Of a stretch of DNA of 61,268 nt, positions 3,286-51,213 are shown piece after piece. This stretch comes from a virus: positions 1-61,268 of the IMG/VR virus record IMGVR_UViG_3300036791_000423; one strand, given 5' to 3'. The notes under the pieces were generated by a model. It was not told the origin of the DNA and made no database searches. It saw only the letters and a list, made by a program, of their open reading frames with translations. The position numbers and the translations under genes were made by a program. Within the stretch, counting starts at the first letter, position 1. Each line of letters starts with the position of its first letter.

Positions 3286-3480
3286 ATGACTGAACGCGTA
3301 TGGGACGGCACGGCATCACATGCCCGTGTCAAAAATGCCGAGACCAAGTATTGCGACGAGTGCGGCCATGCCTTGGACCGGCATAAGCGCAACAATGACA
3401 AAAGACTATATGTCTGTAACTTCCATGGCTGTAGCTGCAAACTGCCAAAGTTAAAGGTGCATAAAGTTGAGAAGCCTTAA
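3286..3480 (+). CDS. Small zinc-ribbon protein
   Basis: 64 residues with CDECGHALDRH and CNFHGCSC, giving paired cysteine knuckles typical of a treble-clef or ribbon. The start at 3286 follows AAAGGTAGACA. Its stop codon is the first triplet of the class A leader at 3481. Function unknown; a nucleic-acid or protein adaptor role is only inferred. Confidence 0.7.
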   Translation: MTERVWDGTASHARVKNAETKYCDECGHALDRHKRNNDKRLYVCNFHGCSCKLPKLKVHKVEKP

Positions 3481-3533
3481 GTTCATCGACGGGGCGGCAC
3501 TTGGCTTGCCGTCCAACGATGCACTTACGCATC
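3481..3533 (+). promoter_or_regulatory. Bistable leader, class A copy 1
   Basis: Begins right after a stop codon. Outer stem CATCG (3484-3488) / CGATG (3517-3521) encloses GGGCGGCA (3492-3499) / TGCCGTCC (3507-3514). The GATG of the outer stem is also the 5' arm of the hairpin GATGC-ACTTAC-GCATC (3518-3533), which sits just before the AAAAGG ribosome site of the gene at 3555. Copies are at 4278, 6862 and 22770. Confidence 0.75.
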
Positions 3534-3554
3534 ATGCAAAAGGAAAACAAACAA

Positions 3555-3940: not shown

Positions 3941-4273
3941 ATGGAAGTTGATATCGATAAACTACAGGCACGGGCGGCTCGTCATCCGTCCAAGCATGTC
4001 ACCCGGTTTGAACCATTGATACCAATCGTCATCGAAGCTTTGCAAAAGGCCGGTATCAAGGTCGAACGATATTATACCAATCAAGTCAAGATTGGTGATC
4101 GCTGGATGGGTAGATTCGATCACGTCAGCCGAACTGCCGATCATATCTCGCGGTTGGCCATTTATGCGGTAGGGCGGGTAGACCACGATACCCGGCCGAT
4201 CTTGGAAATCCGCAACGAGGCCGAGGCACGATTGTTTGCCAAGACGGTTGCTTTGATGAAAGATGCTTTGTGA
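3941..4273 (+). CDS. Hypothetical protein
   Basis: 110 residues with a good AGGAG site (3931). Mixed alpha/beta, with positively charged stretches (RHPSKHVTRFEP, KVERYYTNQVKIGDRW). No known family. The following class A leader begins at its stop codon. Confidence 0.65.
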   Translation: MEVDIDKLQARAARHPSKHVTRFEPLIPIVIEALQKAGIKVERYYTNQVKIGDRWMGRFDHVSRTADHISRLAIYAVGRVDHDTRPILEIRNEAEARLFAKTVALMKDAL

Positions 4274-4327
4274 AGTCTATCGACGGGGCGGCAGCTAGTC
4301 TGCCGTCCAACGATGCACTTACGCATC
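4271..4327 (+). promoter_or_regulatory. Bistable leader, class A copy 2
   Basis: Outer stem TATCG (4278-4282) / CGATG (4311-4315), one U-G pair. Inner hairpin GGGCGGCA (4286-4293) / TGCCGTCC (4301-4308) with a loop different from copy 1. Alternative hairpin GATGC-ACTTAC-GCATC (4312-4327) followed immediately by ACAGGAG, the ribosome site of the gene at 4344. Confidence 0.75.
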
Positions 4328-4343
4328 ACAGGAGAAATTGAAA

Positions 4344-4780: not shown

Positions 4781-4787
4781 AGTTGGA

Positions 4788-4841
4788 TTGTTCCAACGGT
4801 GCGCCGTCTTCGGACGGCGTACAATGGAGCAATAATGTTCC
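4788..4841 (+). promoter_or_regulatory. Bistable leader, class B copy 1
   Basis: Outer stem TTGTTCCA (4788-4795) / TGGAGCAA (4825-4832). Inner hairpin CGCCGTC / GACGGCG closed by the very stable cUUCGg tetraloop (4802-4819). Alternative hairpin GGAGC-AATAAT-GTTCC (4826-4841), followed by GCAGGAGAAAG, the ribosome site of the gene at 4869. Confidence 0.7.
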
Positions 4842-6639: not shown

Positions 6640-6858
6640 ATGATCGTAAAAGGAATGACGCCAACCGACTTGATTTTCATGTCGCGTATGGTTGAACAAT
6701 ATGGCGTGACCGCGGTGCTATGCGGTATCGCTGCAATCTGCCATGACAAGGCCACCAGTCTGATCGAGACCCAAGACAAGCACCAAGCTGGCCCATGGGT
6801 CAAGGCCGGTGATGTGATCGAAGGCACGGTCAGCGCAACAGACGGATGGCCATCTTAA
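6640..6858 (+). CDS. Hypothetical protein
   Basis: 72 residues, ribosome site AGGAGACTAAA. MTPTDLIFMSRMVEQYGVTA and GIAAICHDKATSLIETQ are helical; no known domain. Its stop is the first triplet of class A leader copy 3. Confidence 0.6.
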   Translation: MIVKGMTPTDLIFMSRMVEQYGVTAVLCGIAAICHDKATSLIETQDKHQAGPWVKAGDVIEGTVSATDGWPS

Positions 6859-6911
6859 GTTCATCGACGGGGCGGCAGCGTGTCTGCCGTCCAACGATGC
6901 ACTTACGCATC
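6856..6911 (+). promoter_or_regulatory. Bistable leader, class A copy 3
   Basis: Outer stem CATCG (6862-6866) / CGATG (6895-6899); inner hairpin GGGCGGCA (6870-6877) / TGCCGTCC (6885-6892); alternative hairpin GATGC-ACTTAC-GCATC (6896-6911). It leads into the TAAGGA site of the TTG-started gene at 6929. Confidence 0.75.
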
Positions 6912-6928
6912 ATATAAGGAAACGTGTC

Positions 6929-9490: not shown

Positions 9491-9632
9491 AAACATTACC
9501 GAATAAAAATTGTTACGACATCCTCGACTTTACAACCACAGGATGCTATATCTATTTTTGTCGATGGCAAAGACGCCTCCGGCAAAAGTAATCGGACCGC
9601 AAAGCAAAACCCTCCAAAAAACAGGAGCCGCC

Positions 9633-9998
9633 ATGCGCGACGATACAGACACGGTCACTGATCAGGCATCGCCAGTTGAACCCGTGCAACCCACAGATGC
9701 CACAAAAAGGAAATCTAAAATGGCTACCACTGCAAAAAAGGCTAAATCCGCTCCCAAGGCCCGTAAGGCCGTCAAGGCCAAATCGACGGCTCGTCGCGTG
9801 ATCAAGAAGGGCGCGGCCAAGAAGGGTGTTGCGACCGGCATCAATGCCAAGGGACACCGCGAAGGTTCAATCAAGTCGAAGGCCCATGATATCTTCGACA
9901 AGGTCGGTGACAATGACAAGGCTCGGGCGCAGGTGCTCAAGCTTGGTGTCAAGGAGACCACGGTCTCGTCTTGGTTTTCGACCTTCCGTAACGTCTAA
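9633..9998 (+). CDS. Histone-like basic protein with HTH-like end
   Basis: 121 residues from the ATG at 9633 (ACAGGAG 7 nt upstream). A second good start at 9720 (AAAAGGAAATCTAAA) would give a 92-residue form without the acidic N-terminus. Middle: Lys/Ala-rich H1-like tract (AKKAKSAPKARKAVKAKST). End (residues about 70-121): EGSIKSKAHDIF and ETTVSSWFSTFRNV, the same module found at the start of the gene at 2398. Likely a DNA-compacting or silencing protein. Confidence 0.75.
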   Translation: MRDDTDTVTDQASPVEPVQPTDATKRKSKMATTAKKAKSAPKARKAVKAKSTARRVIKKGAAKKGVATGINAKGHREGSIKSKAHDIFDKVGDNDKARAQVLKLGVKETTVSSWFSTFRNV

Positions 9999-10013
9999 AA
10001 TCCGCAAACGCGA

Positions 10014-10052
10014 CCCTATGCCCGGCACCTGCAAAGGTTACCGGGCATAGGG
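10014..10052 (+). promoter_or_regulatory. Leader hairpin, class C copy 1
   Basis: Perfect 12-bp stem CCCTATGCCCGG (10014-10025) / CCGGGCATAGGG (10041-10052). Inside it is ACCT-GCAA-AGGT, a short stem with a GNRA tetraloop. The sequence CCCGGCACCTGCAAAGG recurs at 22463 before another gene. It lies between the stop at 9998 and the gene at 10087. Confidence 0.65.
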
Positions 10053-10086
10053 CATTAGGACAATCACACTCCAAAAAGGAACCATC

Positions 10087-10488
10087 ATGACTTTTGAACA
10101 AGAGGCCAGTGTGCTGGCCAATCTCGACACTATCCTTAGCGCCCCAACGCCTCCGCCGCTTCCGCTTCCTCGCCGTCGCTGGAAGCGCAAGCTCATGGCC
10201 ATCACCGCGCTCGCGGCGATCGGTTTCGGATATTATGTCTATAGCGGGGTAACCCATGTGGACACCATGGCCGAAAAAGGCTTGCGGCTTTGGGACCGCA
10301 CCGAGCTCCTGATCCAAGCTGATCCGTATCACCGTTCACCGGCCTCTTGTGATCTGGCTCGTGACGCCGCGACCAAGCTTCGGGCCTTGCAGGCTGGTGA
10401 CAAATTAGACATGTTGTCCGAGCGGATTGTGGCGCTCAATGACCTCGGCACAAACGCCAAACTCTGCGTAAGGGAGTTATCTAGATGA
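10087..10488 (+). CDS. Single-pass membrane protein
   Basis: 133 residues. A Pro-rich N-terminus (SAPTPPPLPLPRRRWKRK) and positive charges precede one membrane helix (LMAITALAAIGFGYYVYSGV, about residues 37-56). The rest is a helical domain with three cysteines, presumably periplasmic (N-in by the positive-inside rule). Good AAAAGGAACC site. Function unknown; superinfection or lysis-timing roles are possible. Confidence 0.7.
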   Translation: MTFEQEASVLANLDTILSAPTPPPLPLPRRRWKRKLMAITALAAIGFGYYVYSGVTHVDTMAEKGLRLWDRTELLIQADPYHRSPASCDLARDAATKLRALQAGDKLDMLSERIVALNDLGTNAKLCVRELSR

Positions 10489-10892
10489 AGCGTGTCTGCT
10501 TTGTCAGTTGTGGAAAAAACAAGGCCTCTGAAAAGAGGCCTTGTTCTTTTTTATATACGGGTGATTTGTTCCAAAAGTCGTTTCGGCTGGCCAAGGTCAG
10601 CTATGACGCCGTGGCGATTTTATCGGCAAAGCACGGCATGTTACAGCCCGATGACGTGATTGCACCCTATGACCTTACGCTTAAGACCATGGCCAAGCGC
10701 GAGCGTGCCTTATGGGCGCGCAAGGTCTCGGCGCAAATCATTGCGCGCTATCCACCCGAGGCTTGGCAATATGTTTACTTTGCCGGTGCCGATTATACGC
10801 AAGGCTTGCCGACGGGCGAGCACCCAATGGGTAAACTATCGTTCGGCCGTCGCTTGCAATGGCTGAACCAAAAATTACGGACGCTGGATTAG
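10485..10892 (+). CDS. DUF6884 family protein
   Basis: 135 residues. It follows the DUF6884 pattern from end to end: VCFVSCGKNK, then LYTGDLFQKS, AILSAKHGMLQPDDVIAPYD, and RERALWARKV. Members occur in phages and mobile elements and I recall them near 7-deazaguanine genes, as here; the biochemical role is not established. It overlaps the previous stop by 4 nt. A perfect terminator-like hairpin lies inside codons 12-21, without disturbing the family alignment. A separate terminator follows the gene. Confidence 0.75.
   Translation: MKRVCFVSCGKNKASEKRPCSFLYTGDLFQKSFRLAKVSYDAVAILSAKHGMLQPDDVIAPYDLTLKTMAKRERALWARKVSAQIIARYPPEAWQYVYFAGADYTQGLPTGEHPMGKLSFGRRLQWLNQKLRTLD
10518..10552 (+). terminator. 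Terminator-like hairpin inside coding sequence
   Basis: 12-bp perfect stem AACAAGGCCTCT / AGAGGCCTTGTT with a GAAA tetraloop, followed by CTTTTTT. It lies about 30 nt after the stop of the membrane-protein gene but within the 5' coding region of the DUF6884 gene. By rule it should terminate transcription; with a ribosome translating over it, it may be prevented from folding. Confidence 0.75.
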
Positions 10893-10919
10893 CCAGCGGC
10901 TTAGCTGATCGATCCAAAG

Positions 10920-10946
10920 GCCTGCCATGGTGGCAGGCTTTTTCAT
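10920..10946 (+). terminator. Intrinsic terminator
   Basis: GCCTGCCA-TGG-TGGCAGGC stem followed by TTTTTCATTTT, 28 nt after the DUF6884 stop and just before the ribosome site of the gene at 10963. It separates the DUF6884 gene from the deazaguanine operon. Confidence 0.75.
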
Positions 10947-10962
10947 TTTGGGAGGTGACAAA

Positions 10963-11121
10963 ATGTCGAACAATGATTTCATTTGCGAAGATTGCAAATA
11001 CCATGTCTACGGTTTCGGATTCAAGAGAGACGCAAAGCTTTGCGTCAATTGTCAATGGCTCAAAGATCATCCAGACGCATCAGAAGAAATCAAGGCAATC
11101 ATAAGAGGAGAACGCAAATGA
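10963..11121 (+). CDS. Small zinc-ribbon protein
   Basis: 52 residues with CEDC and CVNC pairs spaced about 18 residues apart, a four-cysteine zinc ribbon. GGGAGGTGAC site 7 nt before the ATG. First gene after a terminator and ATGA-coupled to QueC, so it heads the deazaguanine operon. It might assist DNA recognition, but that is inference. Confidence 0.7.
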   Translation: MSNNDFICEDCKYHVYGFGFKRDAKLCVNCQWLKDHPDASEEIKAIIRGERK

Positions 11122-11885
11122 CTTCAGCGCTAGTGATTCTGTCCGGTGGCCAAGACTCAACGACATGCCTTTACTGGGCCAAGCAATATTACGACAAAGT
11201 GCATGCGATCACCTTTGACTATGGCCAGCGGCACCGGCGCGAGCTTGAAGCCGCGTTTCTGATTGGCCATATGGCCAAGACTGATTCGCATGAGATTTTA
11301 CCAATAGGATCGATACTGGCAGGCAAATCACCGCTGACCGATCATTCGCAGCCACTTGAGACCTATTCCGATTACGCGTCTATGGACAAGATCATCGGTA
11401 ATCGTGTCGAGCTGACATTTGTACCAATGCGCAACGCATTGTTTCTGACACTGGCAGCCAATCGCGCTGCGGTGCTTGACATCCAAAACATCATCACAGG
11501 CGTATGCCAGCAGGACAATGCCAACTACCCTGACTGTAGATTAAGTTTTATCCGCAGCATGCAACAAACGATCAACGAGGCGCTTGGCTTGGATTACACC
11601 ATGCGTATCATCACGCCATTGATGACCTTGTCCAAGGCTGACAGTATCCGCATGGCGATGGAACTACCCGGTTGTATGGATGCCTTGGCCTATAGCCATA
11701 CTGCTTACGACAATGCGTATCCGCCCAATGGCAGGGACCATGCTTCAACACTGCGCGCCCAAGGCTTTTTGGAAGCCGGTATCCCCGATCCGCTGATAGT
11801 CCGCGCAGTGTTTGAAAACCTGATGGACCTTCCGGCAGGGACAAATTATGATGGCTTGCGCACCATCGCAGTCAAAGGGGAATAA
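11118..11885 (+). CDS. queC: QueC-like 7-cyano-7-deazaguanine synthase, zinc site lost
   Basis: 255 residues, normal length for QueC, which uses ATP and ammonia to convert 7-carboxy-7-deazaguanine (CDG) first to the amide ADG and then to the nitrile preQ0. The PP-loop is intact (SGGQDS, residues 9-14), as are DYGQRH and PMRNALFLTLA. The C-terminal zinc motif, usually Cys ... CGxCxxC, here reads A196 ... NGRDHAS (N204, D207, S210). All four cysteines are missing while LRAQGF and GIPDP around it are conserved. The enzyme may be altered or may stop at ADG. ATGA overlap with the preceding ribbon gene fixes the start. Confidence 0.85.
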   Translation: MTSALVILSGGQDSTTCLYWAKQYYDKVHAITFDYGQRHRRELEAAFLIGHMAKTDSHEILPIGSILAGKSPLTDHSQPLETYSDYASMDKIIGNRVELTFVPMRNALFLTLAANRAAVLDIQNIITGVCQQDNANYPDCRLSFIRSMQQTINEALGLDYTMRIITPLMTLSKADSIRMAMELPGCMDALAYSHTAYDNAYPPNGRDHASTLRAQGFLEAGIPDPLIVRAVFENLMDLPAGTNYDGLRTIAVKGE

Positions 11886-11888
11886 CCC

Positions 11889-12248
11889 ATGATCCAGATC
11901 ACCCGCCGCTATCACTTTGAAGCCGCGCATTTCCTGCCCAAGGTCCCTGAAGGCCATAAGTGCAAACGCATGCATGGCCACAATTATGAGATCGAAGTCA
12001 CCGTCGCCAAGCCGCTAGGTAAAGACGGCTTCCTGATGGATTTCGCGGACCTCGACAAGCTGGTACAGCCAATCATTGACAAGATTGATCACCGCACGCT
12101 CAATGACATCAAAGGTCTTGAAAATCCAACGGCTGAACTGATCGGTCAGTGGTTTATGGACAAGCTGGCCAAGCATGATGTGCATGGTATAAGAGTGTAT
12201 GAGACAAAAGATTGTTGGAGCACAATCTGGAGGCCAGCCGATGAATGA
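11889..12248 (+). CDS. queD: QueD, 6-carboxytetrahydropterin synthase
   Basis: 119 residues, full length. Converts dihydroneopterin triphosphate to 6-carboxy-5,6,7,8-tetrahydropterin, step two of 7-deazaguanine synthesis. Zinc histidines and catalytic cysteine are present: HFEAAHFLPKVPEGHKCKRM followed by HGHNY. The downstream DFADLDKL, IDHRTLNDI and GLENPTAE blocks match E. coli QueD closely. Starts 3 nt after the queC stop and overlaps folE by 8 nt. Confidence 0.9.
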   Translation: MIQITRRYHFEAAHFLPKVPEGHKCKRMHGHNYEIEVTVAKPLGKDGFLMDFADLDKLVQPIIDKIDHRTLNDIKGLENPTAELIGQWFMDKLAKHDVHGIRVYETKDCWSTIWRPADE

Positions 12249-12831
12249 ACTGGATGATGAGCGAAATCAATTCGCTATCAAAACACTGCTAAAATTTATC
12301 GGCGAAGACCCAAACCGCGAAGGCTTGCGGGATACGCCTGCTCGCGTCATGCGTGCTTGGCGCGAATGGGCCACCGGCTATACTCAAGACCCGGCAACCA
12401 TCCTTGCGCGGACCTTTGAAGATGGCGCGCAAGACTTCAACGAAATGGTGATCGTGCATAACGCACCGGTCATCAGCAAATGCGAACACCATTTGGCTGA
12501 CATCATAGGCCATGCCCATATCGGCTATATCCCAAAAGGCAAGATCGTAGGCATTTCAAAGCTGGTGCGGCTGGTGGATTGCTTTGCCCGTCGATTACAG
12601 GTCCAAGAACGGCTTACGACGCAGATTGCCGACGCGATTATGCAGCACCTCGAGCCGATTGGAGTGGGCGTGCTGGTACGAGCATCGCATGCCTGCATGT
12701 CAACGCGTGGTGTCAACATCCAGCGCTCGGTGACGACCACATCGGCCATGCGCGGTGCGCTGATGGACAAGCCGGAAGCGAGAAAAGAATTTCTGGACCT
12801 ATGTGCAATGGCGGAAAAAGAAGTTCAGTAG
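12241..12831 (+). CDS. folE: GTP cyclohydrolase I
   Basis: 196 residues. Opens the guanine ring of GTP to give dihydroneopterin triphosphate, the entry step for 7-deazaguanine. Key parts are visible: NREGLRDTPARV, the zinc/catalytic CEHH, PKGKIVGISKLVRLV, RRLQVQERLT, and the second zinc cysteine in CMSTRGV with SVTTTSAMRG. The start at 12241 follows GGAGGCCAGCCG and overlaps queD. A phage copy presumably boosts flux beyond the host folate enzyme. Confidence 0.92.
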   Translation: MNELDDERNQFAIKTLLKFIGEDPNREGLRDTPARVMRAWREWATGYTQDPATILARTFEDGAQDFNEMVIVHNAPVISKCEHHLADIIGHAHIGYIPKGKIVGISKLVRLVDCFARRLQVQERLTTQIADAIMQHLEPIGVGVLVRASHACMSTRGVNIQRSVTTTSAMRGALMDKPEARKEFLDLCAMAEKEVQ

Positions 12832-12843
12832 GGGAGTGATCAT

Positions 12844-13836
12844 ATGCGTATCTATCTGGCAGGCTGGTGGCATGTCGGCAACGCCATCGGAACCAACATC
12901 CATCAGTATAATCTGCATACCGTGCGGTATCCGTTTCATCTCGAGTCGTTCCATTACATGGACCGGCAAATCATTCAGCAGGCCCGCATGGCACAGACCA
13001 AGATGTTCTTGGACAGTGGCGCATTCAGCGCCATGACACAAGGCGTAAAGATCAACATCAAGGCTTATGCCAAGTTCATCCAAGGCAATCAGGACATCGT
13101 CGATTTCGCTTCCAATCTTGACGATACCACCAAGACCGAACAGGTAAGTTACGACAATCAAAAGTATCTGGAAGGTGCAGGCTGCCAAGTCAAGCCGGTG
13201 TTCCATTGTCGCGAAGACGAGAAATGGCTGCGCCGCTATATCGACGAAGGTTACGACTACATCCTGTTGGGCGGCATGGTCCCAGAAACCACCAAATGGC
13301 TAATCGGCTGGCTTGATCACCTTTGGCATCACTACTTTACTAAATCAGATGGTACCGCACGGTTCAAGGTTCATGGTTTTGGCTTGACCAGTCTACCGCT
13401 GATGTATCGCTATCCATGGTATAGCGTCGATTCGTCATCATGGGCACAGACCGCCAAGTTCGGCGGTGTCCTGCTTGACATCATGCAGCCTGATGGCAGC
13501 TATAAGGATTACAACATCGAGTTTTCCGACAACACCGCCAGCCGTTATAATCTGCACGGCTGGCACTATTGGAGTTTAAGCAAAGATGAGCAGCGGACAA
13601 TTGAAAACCGCTTGGCCGAGATGGAGGAAGCACGCCATAAAAATCCTGAAATCGAAGACCGCTTGGCGGTGATGATGAAATGCAAACAAGGCTTCTACCC
13701 CGAAGCTTTGGCCAAATCTTACGGCTGGCGCATGTATGCCAATCTGGAATATTTCCGCCGTGCCATGGAACGCCGCGTCACAACGTTTCGTCGTAAGCAG
13801 GATACTCTGTGGGACCACTTTGGGAGGACCGGATGA
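12844..13836 (+). CDS. dpdA: DpdA-like DNA 7-deazaguanine transglycosylase
   Basis: 330 residues of the TGT-like fold. DpdA-type enzymes swap guanine in DNA for a 7-deazaguanine base. Signature blocks: FLDSGAFSA (D57, a candidate catalytic or base-binding aspartate), SNLDDT, VFHCRED, YILLGGMVPE, FKVHGFGLTSLPLM and YSVDSSSW (D196). This matches the phage group of DpdA proteins rather than the bacterial tRNA TGT. The location right after queC-queD-folE says the pathway product goes into phage DNA, probably to block restriction. The C-terminal about 70 residues are helical and less typical. Confidence 0.88.
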   Translation: MRIYLAGWWHVGNAIGTNIHQYNLHTVRYPFHLESFHYMDRQIIQQARMAQTKMFLDSGAFSAMTQGVKINIKAYAKFIQGNQDIVDFASNLDDTTKTEQVSYDNQKYLEGAGCQVKPVFHCREDEKWLRRYIDEGYDYILLGGMVPETTKWLIGWLDHLWHHYFTKSDGTARFKVHGFGLTSLPLMYRYPWYSVDSSSWAQTAKFGGVLLDIMQPDGSYKDYNIEFSDNTASRYNLHGWHYWSLSKDEQRTIENRLAEMEEARHKNPEIEDRLAVMMKCKQGFYPEALAKSYGWRMYANLEYFRRAMERRVTTFRRKQDTLWDHFGRTG

Positions 13837-15536: not shown

Positions 15537-16235
15537 ATGCACGGAAAAAATCATATAGAAAGAGTGAAACATGACGAGGGCATGGAATTGCATGTTGTCA
15601 AAGGTAGTCCGTTTCTCACTATCCAAGGCGAAGGGCCATATATCGGATATCCGGCTATCTTCATTAGGCTGCATGGTTGTCATCTACGTTGCGTATTTTG
15701 CGATACTGCTTTTGATGATGCCGACGACCCGACTTGGACCATCTACGATCTTGTCGGCAAAATCACCCGCATTTGTAAGCTTGCCAAACTTGTCGTCATC
15801 ACCGGCGGCGAACCCATGCGGCAAAACATCAAACCACTATGCCAACAATTATGCGGCAACGGTTTCCGCGTGCAAATAGAAACCGCCGGAACATTTTGGC
15901 TGGATGGCATCGAAAAATATGCCGATATTGTCTGTTCGCCCAAGACACCGACAATCCACAAAGAGGTATATCGTCATGCCAGAGCCTTCAAATATGTCAT
16001 CAGTACTGGACAGATTTTCGACGATAGCTACCCTGTACCAATTACAGCGACGCAACCGGAAGCGCGGCCGAACCGGCTGGCGTTGCCGCGCCGCGGTGCG
16101 GCGGTTTATCTTTCGCCGATGGACGAAGGAGATGAAACCGCCAATGCTGCCAATCGTAAACTCGTCGGCGAACTCGCCATTCGATTCGGAGTCATCGCCG
16201 GAATCCAATTGCACAAATTTATAGGTGTCGAATGA
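15537..16235 (+). CDS. queE: QueE, 7-carboxy-7-deazaguanine synthase
   Basis: 232 residues, radical SAM enzyme that turns carboxytetrahydropterin into 7-carboxy-7-deazaguanine. LTIQGEGPYIGYPAIFIRLH precedes the iron-sulfur motif CxxxCxxC (C48, C52, C55; GCHLRCVFCDTAF), then VVITGGEP and QIETAGT. All match known QueE. It is separated from queC/D and folE by the dpdA-clamp stretch and has its own leader, so it may be independently expressed. Start at 15537 is set by AGGAGAAATAAAA. ATGA overlap with the next gene. Confidence 0.92.
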   Translation: MHGKNHIERVKHDEGMELHVVKGSPFLTIQGEGPYIGYPAIFIRLHGCHLRCVFCDTAFDDADDPTWTIYDLVGKITRICKLAKLVVITGGEPMRQNIKPLCQQLCGNGFRVQIETAGTFWLDGIEKYADIVCSPKTPTIHKEVYRHARAFKYVISTGQIFDDSYPVPITATQPEARPNRLALPRRGAAVYLSPMDEGDETANAANRKLVGELAIRFGVIAGIQLHKFIGVE

Positions 16236-22454: not shown

Positions 22455-22497
22455 CCTTTACGCCCGGCACCTGCAAAGGTTACCGGGCTTTAGGGCA
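22455..22497 (+). promoter_or_regulatory. Leader hairpin, class C copy 2
   Basis: GCCCGG (22462-22467) / CCGGGC (22483-22488) closing the same CACCTGCAAAGGTTA loop as copy 1 at 10014, including ACCT-GCAA-AGGT. Flanks CCTTTA / TTTAGGG pair less perfectly than in copy 1. An AAAAAGGAACC site follows, as in copy 1. Confidence 0.6.
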
Positions 22498-22529: not shown

Positions 22530-22766
22530 ATGTCTACGATCTACGATTACTACGAGTCGCAATTAAATGCGACATGCAAGGATGTGTCACTGCGTGACTT
22601 GCCTGTCGAGTCAGTTTGCGGCCAAGATTGCAAAGGCGTGATTGATGCCACCAAGACTTATCTCGATTACTTCGAGCTGGCCCATGGCTTGGAAGCATCA
22701 ATAACCGAAAGGCAACATATGGTCAGAAAATGTAACCATGTGATAAGCATCTTTTGGAGAGGATAA
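22530..22766 (+). CDS. Hypothetical protein
   Basis: 78 residues after AAAAAGGAACCTGCT. Four cysteines (C14, C28, C32, C71) scattered in a helical protein; VCGQDCKG hints at a metal or disulfide pair. Its stop begins class A leader copy 4. Confidence 0.6.
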   Translation: MSTIYDYYESQLNATCKDVSLRDLPVESVCGQDCKGVIDATKTYLDYFELAHGLEASITERQHMVRKCNHVISIFWRG

Positions 22767-22769
22767 GTT

Positions 22770-22818
22770 TATCTACGGACCGGCCTTTAATGGCCGGTCA
22801 AAGATGCACTTACGCATC
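22770..22818 (+). promoter_or_regulatory. Bistable leader, class A copy 4 (covarying)
   Basis: Outer stem TATCT (22770-22774) / AGATG (22802-22806) replaces CATCG / CGATG of copies 1 and 3 by a compensated change. The inner hairpin GACCGGCC (22778-22785) / GGCCGGTC (22792-22799) is fully re-paired with a different sequence. Hairpin GATGC-ACTTAC-GCATC (22803-22818) is unchanged. AAAAGGAACC follows. Confidence 0.75.
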
Positions 22819-22833
22819 AAAAGGAACCAAACC

Positions 22834-23814: not shown

Positions 23815-23821
23815 CAAAGGA

Positions 23822-23875
23822 TTGTTCCCACGGAGCGGCTGATACGTCAGCCGCTTTAGGGAGCAATAATGCTCC
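23822..23875 (+). promoter_or_regulatory. Bistable leader, class B copy 2
   Basis: Outer stem TTGTTCCC (23822-23829) / GGGAGCAA (23859-23866), covarying with copy 1 (A-T to C-G at the inner pair). Inner 9-bp hairpin AGCGGCTGA / TCAGCCGCT. Alternative hairpin GGAGC-AATAAT-GCTCC (23860-23875), then AACAGGAGAAAG. Confidence 0.75.
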
Positions 23876-25803: not shown

Positions 25804-25918
25804 ACGCTGGTGCTGTTTCTGGTTCCATTATCCTTTCTATCAGGTAACCAGAACCGATGTCTGCACAACGCAAATGCATTGCAGCTATTGCGATCGTAGC
25901 TGGATTGTCTTGCACTAG
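25796..25918 (+). CDS. Small Cys/Trp-rich zinc-type protein
   Basis: 40 residues (starts MFRRWCCFWFHYPFYQVTRT). Later CSYC gives a possible zinc pair with the N-terminal CC. AAGGAGG lies upstream. Last gene of the plus arm; the pentamer array begins at its stop codon. Confidence 0.6.
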   Translation: MFRRWCCFWFHYPFYQVTRTDVCTTQMHCSYCDRSWIVLH

Positions 25919-27180
25919 GCAGGCATAGCAGTTCTTTGCCGAGCTGAGCTGTGATTAGTCTAGCAAAGCGGAGCTGAACATAGCCCAGCAGGCAAAGCGG
26001 AGCAACTCAGGGCCACTCGTCACCGAGCTTAGCCTAACCCTGCTCGCCCGTACCCTGCACATCGTGTCAGCGCTTAGCAGTGCAGGCCAAGCTCTCCATA
26101 GCTAAGCCGAGCTTGGTACTGGCGGTGCGCAGTAAAGCAGGCTAAGCTAAGCGAAGCCACATGGAGCAAAGCCCAGCACAGCAGGCAAAGCCAATCAGTG
26201 CAAAGCGGAGCGGTGCGGTGTCAAGCTTGGCTTAGCGGGCAGAGCTTACCTAGGCTGACAACGGCGAAGCGGTGCAAGGCAGGCATGGCATGGCATGGCA
26301 TGGCGTAGACGGTCCTTGCGATCTATGTGCGTGGCCCGGCTAGGCAGGCCAAGCCAAGCATAGTATACCAAGCTTAGCGTAACCGAGCAGAGCAGGCCGT
26401 GCATGGCACAGCCGATCTTGTCCGTGCATAGTCGAATCAAAGCGATGACCAGCGGAACTTGGACCGGCAAAGCAGGCGCAGCAAATCCAAGCGGAGCCTG
26501 TTACATCGTAGCGAACTGAAGCCTAGCATGGCAGGCGAAACTGAACAAAGCGCAGTCCAACCCGGCGGTGCTGAGCGTCTCTGACCACAACTGAGCGCGA
26601 CACGGCACAGCAGGCAAAGCACTTTACGGCTTAGCGTAGCTTGACGTTACACTGTCCTGCCGAACCGTCCTGAGCAGAGCAGGCTATGTGATGATATGCG
26701 AAGCGTTTCGATGCGAAGCGGATCGTGGCTAAGCAGGCCAAGCGAACCACAGCAGATCGTAGCCCAAGATGCATAGTGAAGCCGCTCACTGTTAAGAACG
26801 GCCGAGCTAGGTATAGCAAGACGAAGCCAACCGCTGCGAAGCGATGCATAGCAGGCATGGCATAGCTTCACTAGTCAGAGCGTAGCGTGGCCGATCTCTG
26901 CAAGCCGGACCAAAGCAAAGCTGGCCCAGCAGAACAAGTCCCGGCCCTGTCGTGCTGATCAGTGTACTGCCCGACAAATTCGAGCGAGACCGGGCAATGC
27001 GCAGCAGGCCAAGCTAAACTTAGTAGTGCTTGATCTGGCAGTGCTTGGCAAAGCAGGCACGGCAATGCAAGGTCGCGCCGAGCCCGATCAGGCCCATCGT
27101 GGCCCAGCCTAGCTCAGCAGGCATGGCACAGCTCCGCATCCAGTACAAAGCGAAGCGAAGCTTGTCATCGCAGCGCAATG
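25919..27180. repeat. GCAG/GCNNN pentamer-phased array, left block
   Basis: No convincing gene. GCAGGC occurs exactly at 25919, 25988, 26082, 26137, 26181, 26279, 26344, 26392, 26472, 26531, 26610, 26679, 26733, 26851, 27004, 27053 and 27117. Between these markers the sequence reads as successive five-base units that mostly begin with GC (GCTAA, GCGAA, GCAAA, GCCCA ...). Each marker contributes a four-base unit GCAG that resets the phase, so spacings are typically 4+5n. A degenerate marker GCGGGC at 26235 splits the 98-nt gap into 54 and 44. GCATG is repeated four times at 26283. Confidence 0.85.
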
Positions 27181-27190
27181 CTGGCATATT
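27162..27190 (+). promoter_or_regulatory. Candidate promoter inside the array
   Basis: TTGTCA (27162-27167), 17-nt spacer, CATATT (27185-27190), 32 nt before the ATG at 27222. The spacing is good and the -10 box is weak. Confidence 0.35.
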
Positions 27191-27221
27191 AAACTTCAAG
27201 CGACCAAAGCAAGGGAGCACC

Positions 27222-27395
27222 ATGATGAAATACAAATTATTTGTCGTCTTGGCGTTGTTCTCCGCAATATGCTTGATCACTGGTTACATGCTATCACGAG
27301 ACCAAATGTCGGCGTGGGCACTGCTGGCTTTTATACTCAGCAGTTGGTTCGCGCTGTCATTTGGTTTTATGGTTGGATTGTTTGGTGCAAGGTAA
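27222..27395 (+). CDS. Small two-pass membrane protein inside the array
   Basis: 57 residues, MMKYKLFVVLALFSAICLIT as first membrane helix and ALLAFILSSWFALSFGFMVG as second, short charged turn (RDQMSA) between. AAGGGAGCACC precedes the ATG. The array repeats stop about 100 nt before it and resume 2 nt after its stop. It is the only credible gene in 25919-28520. It resembles holin-like or immunity-type small phage membrane proteins, without a specific match. Confidence 0.6.
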   Translation: MMKYKLFVVLALFSAICLITGYMLSRDQMSAWALLAFILSSWFALSFGFMVGLFGAR

Positions 27396-27396
27396 A

Positions 27397-28517
27397 GCAG
27401 GCTTGGCATAGCGGAGTGACGTTGAGCATAGTCAAGCGAAGCAGGCAATACAGTGCTAAGCTCGGCTGACTATGCTATGACCAGCGAAGCAGGCAGTGCA
27501 TAACCTAGCGACACCCGGCGTGGCAAAGCGCTATCAGCAAATCAATGCGTTGCAGGCTTAGCCTTCCAAGCCAAGCACGGATCATCACAGCGTAGTTATG
27601 CTCTGTCAAACCAAAGCAGGCCGAGCACTGCCCAGCATGCCTCGGCAAACATGGCGGTGCATATCCATGCTAAGCTGAGCAGGCTATGCGAAGCCACGTT
27701 GTTCTGTGCGGAGAGGAGCATGTCAAAGCACGGCTCGACCATGCAGGCGTAGCCCAGCTAGGCCGAGTGGAGCACGGCTTGGCGCATTCCTAGTTGAGCA
27801 AAGCTGAGCAGAGCTGGCGAGGCATTGCTAGGCTAAGCCTTGGCATCAAAGCACAGCAAGGCAATGCCTAGCAGGCCGAGCTTGGCTTAGCCGATTGGTG
27901 CGGTGCGCGGCATAGCGGAGCAGGCTAAGCTTGACAAATCCTAGCAAGACAGAGTCAAGCGGCGTCTGGTGGAGCCCAGCAAGGCAAGCAATGCGGTGCT
28001 TTCCGGAGCGCTGCAAAGCCCGATAGGTCTCAGCGATGCAGGCGAAGCGGAACGCTGCCAAGCTTTGCCAGACATTGCGACGCGTAGCAGGCACAGCCTT
28101 GCTAAGCGAATCCCGGCACTAACCAGCCTAGCACAGCAGGCCCAGCCCAGCGTACCGAATCGTTGCCCGGTGCTGCATACCAGTGTTCTGCAAAGCGAAG
28201 CTATACAAAGCAGGCATAGCCAAGTTGCACGCACCATTGCTGTGTTCAGCACACATATCGTAGCAAAGCAGGCTCCGCAGTTAAGCGCCTTCGGCATTGT
28301 AAAGCTCTGCATGACCTAATCCAAGCGGTGCAGTGCCCAGCGGAGCAGGCTAAGCCAAATCGCTCGAGACTAAGCAAAGCTTGCCGGAGCACAGATGAGC
28401 GAAGCTGTGCAGGCGTAGCGAAGCGCGATATAGTAAAGGGTGCTTTGCCGAACGGCGCAATGCCGAGCAGGCTAAGCGAAGCGTACAAAAAGCCTAGCTT
28501 AACACTGCTTAGCAGGC
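27397..28517. repeat. GCAG/GCNNN pentamer-phased array, right block
   Basis: Exact GCAGGC at 27397, 27441, 27489, 27552, 27616, 27679, 27743, 27871, 27920, 28038, 28087, 28136, 28210, 28268, 28345, 28409, 28467 and 28512. From 27489 to 27871 the markers recur every 63-65 nt, counting a degenerate GCAGAGC at 27808. 28038-28087-28136 are exactly 49 apart. Several segments are fully in phase, for example 27679-27743 (8 of 12 units begin GC) and 28038-28136 (14 of 18). Apparent ORFs here have no ribosome sites and are phase artefacts. Confidence 0.85.
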
Positions 28518-28520
28518 ACA

Positions 28521-28555
28521 AAAAAGGCGTTGGACCGGGAGGCTGGCCCAACGCC
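28521..28555 (-). terminator. Intrinsic terminator of the late operon
   Basis: On the minus strand, GGCGTTGG / CCAACGCC stem followed by TTTTTT. It ends the long minus transcript 24 nt after the last gene and immediately before the array, so late RNA should not enter the array. On the plus strand there is no U-tract, so early transcripts could pass through. Confidence 0.85.
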
Positions 28556-39787: not shown

Positions 39788-42255
39788 GGGGCAATTGCCG
39801 TATCTTTGACGTTACTGGTACTGGGACCTGTCGCAGCAGTAACCATCTGAGTCTGGCGCTCCGGAGCAGTTGGCTTAAACAGCTTCTCACTACCGAGCGT
39901 GGCATCACTTCCGGCACTGGCAACATTTACCTTTACGCTACCAGTCGCATCAACCTTTACCGTCTTAATCGATTTGCGATCGACTGTAGCTCTATTGGCT
40001 TCCGCAGCAGCAGCCGCCTTTGGATCGGCGGTAGCATCCGCTTTTTCGAGCTCAGCTTGTCGCGCCTTTCTCCATTCCACTGAACCGGGATAACCCCAAT
40101 CATTAAACCGTTCTTTATTGATATTGACACCGATCCCACCGGCTTCATAATTCGGGTCACCCTTGCTGCCTTGATCTGTATAGCTCTTGATTGTATTGGC
40201 ACCGCCAAGCGCTGAGTCGATCCGCTTGTTCATCTCCGCGGCATATTTCGGATCGTTCATCTTCTGGAGGTGTTCCCCAATGTACCCATGCTTGATCGGG
40301 CCATAGAAGCTGTGACCATAAGTGCCCATCATCTGCTTGAGCGTAAGTGGCTTCAGTCCTCGCTTGGCCCGAGAGGCGTTCACCAACTCTGTCCGATTCA
40401 TCAGGCTCTCTGCAACCGCAGAACCAGCTCCAACATTTTCCGAGCTGATCACAGCACCAAGTAACTTGCGGGTCTCTGGGTCCTTCAGCTCCTCTTTAAA
40501 TCCGGCTCGCTTCCTGGCCAGCAAGGCGGCGGCTCCCTCACCTTGAACTGCATCAGTACCACCACCGCCAGTCCCCTCTCCAAATTTTTGAGCCATATTG
40601 GCAGCGGTCGCCTCTGGAGTTGTAGCGCCAAGCACTCCTCTGGCCCTCGCGCCCTTGGTGAAGGTGTCCAGCTCGGGAGCGTTTAGAGGAGCACGACCAC
40701 CGCCTGGTGCCGCAGGACCGCCACCAGCAGCGCCGCCTCCGGATGGCTGCGCTGCGCCACCGCCAGCACCCTCTCCTTCACCACCGCCACCACCTCCGCC
40801 GCCCCCTCCACCGCCGCCTCCACCGCCGCCTCCTCCACCGCCACCGCCACCGCCACCACCATTCATGCTTTGCGGCGCTGTGCCCTGCGATGCGATATTA
40901 CCACCGCCTCCGCCATCACCACCTGGAGTCGTACCGCCTCCCCTTGCTCCTGGAGCTTCGATACCAAGTTGCTGGGCCGCGAGATAATCGTTTAATCTCT
41001 TTAGCTGACCGGTGTTGTCCCTCATAATATCAGTATGAGTATCAGTAGTATCTTCCATCGTTGATAACAAATGAGTTGCGCCTCCAACGGCCGCAGCTCC
41101 AGCCTTGCCACCCTTCGCTTCTGGAATATCACCCAATCCAAGTTGATCAGCCAGACCCTTTTGACCATATTTCTTAAGAGCCTCTGCGGTCAAAGGAGAT
41201 TTACCGATTGGCCCCGATACCTCTTCTGGATGTTCTTTTCCAAAGAAATAACGATCTATGCCAGATAAAGTTTTACCAACATAGGGTATCTCACTTTCTC
41301 TTTTGAGTATTCTCTCTTCAGTTTCTCCGCCTTGAGTAGCCCCATGCAAAAATTTTACTAACCGAATAATTTCGTGAAGACCTTCTACAATCAAGCCATC
41401 CGGAGCCAGCGCGGAAGTCTTGATATCTTCCATCCAACTATCCCACTCCTGTTTCAGAATAGTGGTCTGCTTATAGTAGTCAGCAGTTGCCGCAGAACGC
41501 TCGGTCATCAATCTCTTTTCTTCGTCACTGACCTCATGCAGATGTTGGATTAAAGCAAATGTCGGATCAATCCCCCACGCAGCCAAATATTCTTTAGTAA
41601 ACTCGGTCGCGTCAACAACATTATTGTTGGTCTCCTTTAAGCGATTGTTGTAGACGTTTTGCGCCTGAGCTAAAACTTCGTTGATCCTAGAGACCTCCGT
41701 ACGCTGATAGAGAATCGTCTGGATACCAGCTTCCATTTCCCTGCCATAGTGTCCAGCATCTTGCACAAGCTTAAAGTGCTCTGCACTACCGACACGGCCC
41801 ATCTTGGCATAGGCATCATTAAACTTGGCTACGTTTTGATCAGCCTGATCCGCACCCACTCCGATTTGAGCCAATTGCTCTTCTATACTTTTCAATACGG
41901 CCGGATGGACACCAATCACTTTCGCCTTGTTATTGAGCTCCACGATCTTGCTGGAAAATTCATTCAGACCTTTAATCCCTTCGGCCAAGACTAAGCTAAA
42001 TGCAGACACTGCTGCACCGGCCAATCCGAATTTACCGATGAAGCCAATCATGGCCTTTTCGCCACCAGTGACGAGCTCTTGCATCTCCTTTATCTGCTTG
42101 GCCATCTCATTGTGGCTTCGCTTGAAGCGCTCGATATGGCCTTGAGTAGCTCCGCCGCTCAATTGCTCGGATGCTTGGCGCAATTTTTCTATGCCACCGG
42201 ACGCATTGTCCGTTAGCGTGATGACAAGCCTTAGTTCTTCAACTTCAGTTGGCAT
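39784..42255 (-). CDS. Tape measure protein 2 with hydrolase-like domain
   Basis: 823 residues. The N-terminal about 320 (LRLVITLTDNASGGIEKLRQ; GFIGKFGLAGAAVSAFSLVL; QEWDSWMEDIKTSALAPDG) is paralogous to the next protein. A very long poly-Gly/Ala/Pro stretch (about residues 440-530; coding 40640-40930) follows. Residues about 575-740 look like a wall-hydrolase domain (LLGAVISSENVGAGSAVAES, YGHSFYGPIKHGY). The C-terminus repeats KTVKVDATGSVKVNVAS. Likely a length-determining, peptidoglycan-cutting tail component. Starts at TAATG. Confidence 0.8.
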   Translation of the reverse strand: MPTEVEELRLVITLTDNASGGIEKLRQASEQLSGGATQGHIERFKRSHNEMAKQIKEMQELVTGGEKAMIGFIGKFGLAGAAVSAFSLVLAEGIKGLNEFSSKIVELNNKAKVIGVHPAVLKSIEEQLAQIGVGADQADQNVAKFNDAYAKMGRVGSAEHFKLVQDAGHYGREMEAGIQTILYQRTEVSRINEVLAQAQNVYNNRLKETNNNVVDATEFTKEYLAAWGIDPTFALIQHLHEVSDEEKRLMTERSAATADYYKQTTILKQEWDSWMEDIKTSALAPDGLIVEGLHEIIRLVKFLHGATQGGETEERILKRESEIPYVGKTLSGIDRYFFGKEHPEEVSGPIGKSPLTAEALKKYGQKGLADQLGLGDIPEAKGGKAGAAAVGGATHLLSTMEDTTDTHTDIMRDNTGQLKRLNDYLAAQQLGIEAPGARGGGTTPGGDGGGGGNIASQGTAPQSMNGGGGGGGGGGGGGGGGGGGGGGGGGGGEGEGAGGGAAQPSGGGAAGGGPAAPGGGRAPLNAPELDTFTKGARARGVLGATTPEATAANMAQKFGEGTGGGGTDAVQGEGAAALLARKRAGFKEELKDPETRKLLGAVISSENVGAGSAVAESLMNRTELVNASRAKRGLKPLTLKQMMGTYGHSFYGPIKHGYIGEHLQKMNDPKYAAEMNKRIDSALGGANTIKSYTDQGSKGDPNYEAGGIGVNINKERFNDWGYPGSVEWRKARQAELEKADATADPKAAAAAEANRATVDRKSIKTVKVDATGSVKVNVASAGSDATLGSEKLFKPTAPERQTQMVTAATGPSTSNVKDTAIAP

Positions 42256-49910: not shown

Positions 49911-51213
49911 GGCCAGTCTCCTCGTTGTATTGCTCGAATAGCGATCTGATACAAACCGGCTCGGCTTCTTCTCCATTGGATAAAACAGGCGTGATCGTAT
50001 AAGTATGTCTGTTCAATTTCCATGTCTTGATGGTCAACCCATCCCTACCCGGTAAACCAATGCCGCTTGATCCACGCTCTCCTTGTTCACCTCTTGGTCC
50101 CGGCTTACCTGGCTTACCTGCACTTGCAATCAATTGCCAACCATCTCCAGGACAAACTCCTGGATCATTATACTTGGCAATGAAGCTTGATCCATTTAGC
50201 GCCACGATATTCAAAAAATTATAACCAATATCCTTGTCATCTTTCCATGTACCCTTGATTTGCGGCACAACAGCATCAGCGCCAGCAGCAGCGACACAAA
50301 TCCAATCATCGTGCGGAGGCAATCGAGCCGTATCGCACATCGCTTGATACGTGCTGCCCTTATGCGTCACCACATCCCCGTGATAATTGACTCGACCTTC
50401 CACGAGCCGCCTGATCTCTCTCATCGAGCCTGGAGCGCCATCTTTACCAGATTGGCCGCCTTTACCCTCGATACCTTGATCACCCTTCTCGCCTCTCTCG
50501 CCTTGATCGCCTCGATCTCCTTTCTCTCCCTTCTCGCCTTGCGTGCCGATCTCGCCTCGATCACCTCTCTCGCCAGACTCACCGCGTTCACCTTGGGCAC
50601 CAATATCACCCTTCTCTCCCCGCTCCCCTTTGGCCCCTTGGGCACCAATATCGCCAGCGAGCCCGATAGGTCCTTGGTCTCCTTTCTCACCCTTCTCGCC
50701 ACGTTCTCCGTTGAGCCCATCTTTTCCGGGCTCTCCCTTGTCACCATTCTGGCCGGAGTCGCCCTTTTGTCCTGTCTCGCCCTTTTCTCCGGTAACTCCT
50801 GGTTCGCCTTTTTCACCCGGTTCGCCGCGACCACCTTCCTCTCCGCGATCACCTTTATCTCCGGGCTCACCCTTGGGACCTTGCTCACCGAGTTCTCCTT
50901 TTTCTCCAATAGGTCCCTGTTCGCCGCGATCTCCCTGTGGACCAACCGGACCTTGCGCACCATCTTTCCCGTCCTTCAGCTCAGCCAGACGAGCAGTAAT
51001 CAATCCAGTAAGCGTTGCATTCTGCGCCTCGAGCTTAGCAATAATCGCACTCGACTGAGCTTCCATCAATCTGCAGTGACGCTGCCATTCATCATCCTTG
51101 CGGTCGAGTATCTCGGCGAGTGCTATACGCCAAACATCAAGCAGAATTTCTTCGCCGTTGTCCAACTCGCTCGGTGAGGCGGAGAAGGTTTCTAACTTCC
51201 CGTTGGATGTCAT
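49903..51213 (-). CDS. Collagen-like head fibre with carbohydrate-binding repeat
   Basis: 436 residues. N-terminal coiled-coil (about 1-80; MEAQSSAIIAKLEAQNATLT), then about 60 Gly-X-Y triplets (residues 83-268) with many GEKGDRGE words. Next comes a compact module GRVNYHGDVVTHKGSTYQAM ... PPHDDWICVA like a chitin-binding CBM5/12 fold, a second similar module (GTWKDDKDIGYNFLNIVALN), a second short collagen run and a beta end. Encoded inside the head module (overlaps portal by 77 nt), it should be a capsid- or neck-borne adhesion fibre. Confidence 0.8.
   Translation of the reverse strand: MTSNGKLETFSASPSELDNGEEILLDVWRIALAEILDRKDDEWQRHCRLMEAQSSAIIAKLEAQNATLTGLITARLAELKDGKDGAQGPVGPQGDRGEQGPIGEKGELGEQGPKGEPGDKGDRGEEGGRGEPGEKGEPGVTGEKGETGQKGDSGQNGDKGEPGKDGLNGERGEKGEKGDQGPIGLAGDIGAQGAKGERGEKGDIGAQGERGESGERGDRGEIGTQGEKGEKGDRGDQGERGEKGDQGIEGKGGQSGKDGAPGSMREIRRLVEGRVNYHGDVVTHKGSTYQAMCDTARLPPHDDWICVAAAGADAVVPQIKGTWKDDKDIGYNFLNIVALNGSSFIAKYNDPGVCPGDGWQLIASAGKPGKPGPRGEQGERGSSGIGLPGRDGLTIKTWKLNRHTYTITPVLSNGEEAEPVCIRSLFEQYNEETGRG

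Follow-up and report, generated by a model that had tools for sequence, protein, structure and literature searches.

A viral gene for a DUF6884 protein (PF21818; 135 aa; positions 10485..10892, plus strand) contains, just inside its start, a hairpin (T1; 10518..10545, plus strand) that is likely an intrinsic terminator. The gene lies in the window analyzed here, a 61,268-base IMG/VR contig. The hairpin is non-random, and its bases simultaneously form the hairpin and specify codons of the protein, such that the dual coding is real. By analogy with terminator tR2 of phage lambda, T1 is probably a leaky mid-operon terminator that acts for the most part independently of translation and throttles the expression of DUF6884 and of the 7-deazaguanine genes that follow.

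T1 comprises a 12-bp perfect stem, 6 pairs of which are G-C, closed by a GAAA loop (AACAAGGCCTCT-GAAA-AGAGGCCTTGTT). A single C separates the stem from a tract of six T (10547..10552, plus strand) in which a 3' end would be expected, and the best 8-nt window comprises 7 T. In the register of the DUF6884 gene, the hairpin extends from codon 12 (10518-10520) to codon 21 (10545-10547). Folded alone, it has a free energy of -22.5 kcal/mol (z = -6.9) that was equaled by none of 200 shuffled sequences (a separate calculation for the hairpin gave -20.2 kcal/mol), and its stem had a pairing probability of 0.98-0.99 in all five contexts evaluated (87 to 470 nt). Thus, T1 combines two hallmarks of intrinsic terminators: a stable, G+C-containing hairpin and a U-tract after the stem. 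Terminator scores, calculated with a formula that we take to be of the d'Aubenton-Carafa type, placed T1 (3.58) at the top of the five plus-strand candidates scored (0.43, -14.4, -18.5, and -34.5 for the others). A tract of six A that precedes and overlaps the stem (10514..10519, plus strand) makes T1 partly two-way (minus-strand score of 4.49). A preliminary description of this sequence had reported the perfect 12-bp stem, the GAAA loop, the six U, and the location in codons 12-21, all of which are confirmed by reading positions 10518-10552; the distance that it gave from the upstream stop codon (30 nt) compares with 29 nt measured here between stop and stem. Its view of the hairpin as terminator-like is borne out by the fold, the T-tract, and the recoding statistics given below, and its view that the protein fits its family through the hairpin is borne out by the PF21818 match and by the lack of gaps in this stretch relative to the family.

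That match spans residues 4-129 of the translation and 135 of 135 profile positions (E = 5.3e-34; 117.7 bits versus a cut-off of 30). The translation contains the CxxxK and LSAxxG motifs, which the available part of one article (PMC11701544) names as DUF6884 motifs while describing the family as YaaA-like; the same part of that article makes no mention of a terminator in connection with DUF6884. The predicted fold (mean pLDDT of 96.1) places residues 14-17 in a loop that is followed by a short helix (residues 20-23). A misannotated start codon was considered and rejected, as the first strand of the family and the CxxxK motif are already encoded before the hairpin.

The ATG of the DUF6884 gene overlaps the TGA of an upstream gene (10087..10488, plus strand; 133 aa) as ATGA, and a GGAG within the upstream gene (10471..10474, plus strand) is, judging from its sequence, the likely Shine-Dalgarno site. 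The upstream gene had no family match and no relative in the viral contigs searched. A second terminator-like hairpin (T2; 10916..10942, plus strand; z = -2.8, score -18.5) begins 23 nt past the DUF6884 stop codon. Behind T1 and T2 are genes for QueC, a QueD-like protein, FolE, and a queuine-tRNA-ribosyltransferase-like (DpdA-like) protein (11118..13836, plus strand), with a QueE-like gene farther along (15537-16235). Genes for the tail sheath, portal, and terminase are on the minus strand. A promoter scan restricted to the sigma-70 consensus listed no plus-strand candidate from 9558 to 11584. Other gene-end terminators of the window, at 1198, 10916, and 23582, begin approximately 7, 23, and 34 nt past stop codons.

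Three different phages have DUF6884 in the company of queuosine/7-deazaguanine genes: that of locus L229 (record G025), phage phiFN37 (locus L009), and that of the window (10485-13836). This gene neighborhood suggests that DUF6884 has a role in a 7-deazaguanine DNA-modification pathway. Among 27 records with relatives of QueC or DpdA, chosen from 46 loci, a single record encoded DUF6884; there it adjoined QueC and its gene had no perfect stem of at least 7 bp. DUF6884 was absent from all 14 records with related terminases, and relatives of the upstream gene or of the DpdA-like protein were not detected in 10 of these 14 in searches run without a positive control.

To describe how readily such a hairpin arises by chance, codons 8-27 were recoded synonymously, and a perfect stem of at least 12 bp appeared in 22 of 200,000 recodings. 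In a version extended to 87 mechanically chosen phage ORFs (53,397 nt), a stem of at least 10 bp with at least five T in 8 appeared in none of 400 recoded sets, and a 12-bp stem irrespective of the T-tract appeared in 9 of 400. All of these figures are descriptive, given that T1 was singled out by eye among many windows and 61 kb of sequence. Codon usage in codons 12-24 was ordinary, at the 25th percentile among stretches of 13 codons, and this argues against a simple codon-bias signature; a rare-codon signature was likewise looked for in these codons and not seen.

Homologs of the DUF6884 protein were identified by tblastn in 176 of 227 loci, and codons 9-29 are spanned by 173 aligned rows, two of which are the window's own copies and a few of which are duplicates. 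The nearest homologs found are approximately 40% identical (44% in one row). The hairpin stretch is free of gaps in 8 of 8 rows of one alignment and in 136 of the 173 tblastn rows; with no extra residues relative to most homologs, an inserted palindromic element was rejected as the origin of T1. None of the 171 rows other than the window copies has a perfect stem of at least 8 bp in codons 10-24. At position 20, where the window has cysteine, alanine is found in 158 of 173 rows and in 36 of 37 rows of a selected alignment; placing alanine at this codon shortens the stem to 8 bp. Position 22 is aspartate or glutamate in 124 of 173 rows and phenylalanine (F22) in the window, an unusual residue that the T-tract requires. 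None of 167 homolog peptides could encode a stem of at least 10 bp together with a T-tract through synonymous choice (the best reached 9 bp, in three peptides), although 7 of the 167 could encode a stem of at least 12 bp if the T-tract was ignored. These observations are suggestive only of a departure of the protein itself, beyond codon choice, from its family at the hairpin, because the window protein also diverges at other conserved positions (e.g., 35 and 52). A more elaborate scenario would seem very unlikely, namely that the terminator reshaped the protein, with an alanine that is nearly invariant and a residue that is usually acidic both replaced so as to preserve the stem and the U-tract, and that the element, coupled to the ATGA junction, senses translation and thereby sets when 7-deazaguanine modification of the DNA begins.

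The same data bear on two readings in which T1 does not terminate transcription. A neutral accident of this lineage, devoid of effect, would fit a hairpin that is unconserved, codon usage that is ordinary, and a protein that has diverged elsewhere (positions 35 and 52). The chance figures nonetheless make it extremely improbable, even when it is considered that the site was selected by eye from 61 kb. Alternatively, T1 might have a post-transcriptional or DNA-level role (e.g., an RNase barrier, an mRNA stability element, or a protein site) to which the T-tract is incidental. A stable hairpin just behind a stop codon is compatible with such a role, as is the presence at another gene boundary (10014-10053) of a strong hairpin that lacks a T-tract; however, this role is rendered highly improbable by the failure of all 400 recoded sets to combine stem and T-tract and by the dependence of the T-tract on F22, where most homologs have D or E.

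The distribution of terminator-like hairpins was surveyed in 194 loci (1.06 Mb) with mechanically called ORFs, which remained from 236 loci after removal of duplicates; seven loci were dropped by hand (two copies of the window, lambda, and four duplicates). This survey recovered 24 strong terminator-like hairpins, 13 of which were outside single ORFs and 6 of which were antisense. The remaining 5 were in the sense orientation within ORFs that encode no more than 69-77 aa. None of the 24 was in a sense ORF of at least 100 aa. The pattern of the hairpin core matched five other viral stretches.

The preliminary description had argued that transcription of DUF6884 requires readthrough of T1, with which we agree, and had interpreted the arrangement as a switch coupled to translation. 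In such a switch, the 5' arm of the stem would be covered by a ribosome once it had re-initiated at the ATGA junction and entered codons 9-10, and polymerase would pass only during translation of DUF6884. Coverage to approximately 10526 is needed to abolish the hairpin (-0.7 kcal/mol left), the ATGA overlap and the likely Shine-Dalgarno site would favor quick re-initiation, and intrinsic terminators such as that of pyrL can be suppressed by ribosomes according to the available text of PMC5021804. Against the switch are data for lambda tR2 in Escherichia coli, as given in the available sections of Li et al. (2015; PMC4824070): when located 30 bp past an AUG, tR2 kept most of its activity, with translation costing approximately 10%, a weak effect that was ascribed to the 1-2 s needed for initiation, and a ribosome at a stop codon repressed tR2 only within 27 nt. 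With 29 nt free before the T1 stem, a ribosome that waits at the stop codon of the upstream gene is too distant to mask it. Furthermore, the longest T-run between the DUF6884 ATG and the stem is 3, leaving no U-rich stretch for a pause like that in pyrBI. By our reading of the same sections of PMC4824070, the ORF in the tR2 test construct began in a spacer behind the upstream stop codon with no ATGA junction. Coupling through ATGA could thus raise the effect of ribosomes relative to that construct, and for this reason we regard the switch as unlikely rather than remote.

Control of T1 through RNA pairing or recoding was also considered. Upstream complements of the hairpin exist (AGAGGCC and GGCCTCTT), but at 7 and 8 nt they are no better than background, with 120 and 43 of 385 other segments matching equally well, and an antiterminator formed by them was rejected. 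Likewise, no Rfam family for a riboswitch or other known RNA reached its cut-off, and three sub-threshold matches fell far short (24.5 versus 105, 22.4 versus 43, and 15 versus 233 bits). The heptamer A AAA AAC at 10514-10520, which we take to be of the slippery-site type, is in phase; a -1 frameshift was rejected because the spacing is wrong, with the stem beginning inside the heptamer, and because the -1 frame stops almost immediately, at 10529-10531. Collectively, the terminator-like character of T1 and its sharing of bases with a protein gene stand from the preliminary description, and T1 is non-random; masking by ribosomes is disfavored by the 29-nt distance (versus 27 nt), by the behavior of tR2, and by the lack of antiterminator pairing, a riboswitch, or an excess of boxA sites in our searches.

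In lambda, the N protein acts at tR1 and tR2. An analogous gate, in which T1 and T2 would shut the operon early and antitermination by the phage or host would open it later, appears decidedly unlikely. Two terminator-like hairpins within 425 nt at the head of a deazaguanine/replication block would suit such a gate, and the repeated structured intergenic RNAs that are found only in the early region could be antitermination elements. Conversely, boxA-like sites show no excess (8 observed versus 11.7 expected), no known antiterminator was recognized among the 20 early genes scanned (0 of 10 in one set had any PHROG match, and the other set gave no match to an antiterminator), and no Rfam match was obtained.

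Several elements of the window were recorded in their own right. The early region contains four copies of a structured element, all on the plus strand (3479-3543, 4273-4337, 6857-6921, and about 22763-22819), which comprises a stem-loop followed by AACGATGCACTTACGCATCA or a near match, ahead of likely Shine-Dalgarno sites. The fourth copy has a different stem in which pairing is kept, and the element has no Rfam match. A second structured intergenic element occurs at 4785-4841 and 23819-23875, and pairing is kept in the inner stems of both copies (z = -5.5 and -6.0) even though their sequences differ. Two copies of a stem-loop closed by GCAA, at 10017-10046 and 22459-22488, are 97% alike and are upstream of ORFs at 10087 and 22530. 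The stretch between the early and late blocks (25914-28522; approximately 2.6 kb) consists of degenerate AGCAGGC-AAGC-type repeats and has few convincing ORFs, and a strong terminator-like hairpin with six T is near the border of these blocks (28526-28555, minus strand). An ORF with a 9-base repeat pattern (50421-50963, minus strand; 30 repeat copies listed) looks collagen-like, presumably encoding Gly-X-Y.

Returning to the favored reading, T1 would be a Rho-independent terminator that works, although incompletely, midway along an early plus-strand operon. The transcript of the upstream gene would end at T1, approximately 64 nt past its stop codon, and would contain the whole of that gene and a normal 3' end. 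The polymerases reading through T1 would transcribe DUF6884, then meet the weaker T2, and then continue into the 7-deazaguanine and replication genes, such that expression would step down along the operon. Readthrough would be set mainly by the strength of the terminator, perhaps aided by an antitermination factor, and ribosomes would probably mask T1 only weakly at its distance from the start and stop codons. T1 may reside inside the start of DUF6884 because the two genes overlap and because the protein has a variable loop, between its strand 1 and helix 1, that could bend to fit. A terminator is favored by the anatomy of T1, its non-randomness, its top score, the ungapped homologs, the gene-end-like spacing, and the tR2-like layout, tR2 itself having been active in E. 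coli at 30 bp into an ORF. Counting against it are the C between the stem and the six T, a score of 3.58 that is well below that of tR2 (17.54), the ordinary codon usage in codons 12-24, and the hairpin being unconserved in the 171 other rows, such that evolutionary proof of function is absent.

Provided that termination at T1 occurs in vivo, a single stretch of sequence would clearly double as a transcription stop and as codons of a conserved protein, with amino acids for which no homolog examined has an equivalent attainable through synonymous codons. Intragenic terminators are a known kind in bacteria: the coding regions of E. coli are predicted to contain thousands, which can function when they fall within the first 100 bp (available sections of PMC4824070), while Term-seq has detected 3' ends internal to ORFs (available text of PMC7815308). 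T1 differs from these in that the protein departs from its family at the T-tract. The pyrBI (pyrL) attenuator of E. coli is alike in having a hairpin within a translated frame that ribosomes can suppress (per the portions available of PMC5021804 and PMC4824070), but it involves a short leader peptide and programmed pausing, whereas T1 is in a full DUF6884 gene with no U-rich pause stretch and no known signal.

Judged by layout, with no homology claimed, the closest known arrangement is that of lambda tR2 in ninA, between ren and ninB, where an intrinsic terminator in a phage early operon is likewise embedded in an ORF beginning with an ATGA overlap. The tR2 stem (40596-40619) is within an ORF at 40567-40647, named ninA after the available text of PMC4824070, the ATG of which overlaps the ren stop codon (40570). 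The stem begins 29 nt after the ATG in tR2 and 33 nt after it in T1, and 25 and 29 nt, respectively, after the stop codon. Given these near-equal distances and the behavior of tR2, T1 would be expected to act mostly regardless of translation, although the efficiencies of tR2 were measured in E. coli and the host polymerase of this phage may behave otherwise. The two differ in that ninA is a 26-aa ORF that merely bridges its terminator, whereas T1 is within a conserved 135-aa Pfam protein gene. Should T1 terminate in vivo, an unrelated phage would thus have the tR2/ninA layout built around a real gene, and a simple reporter could be used to examine what ribosomes do at sites of this type.
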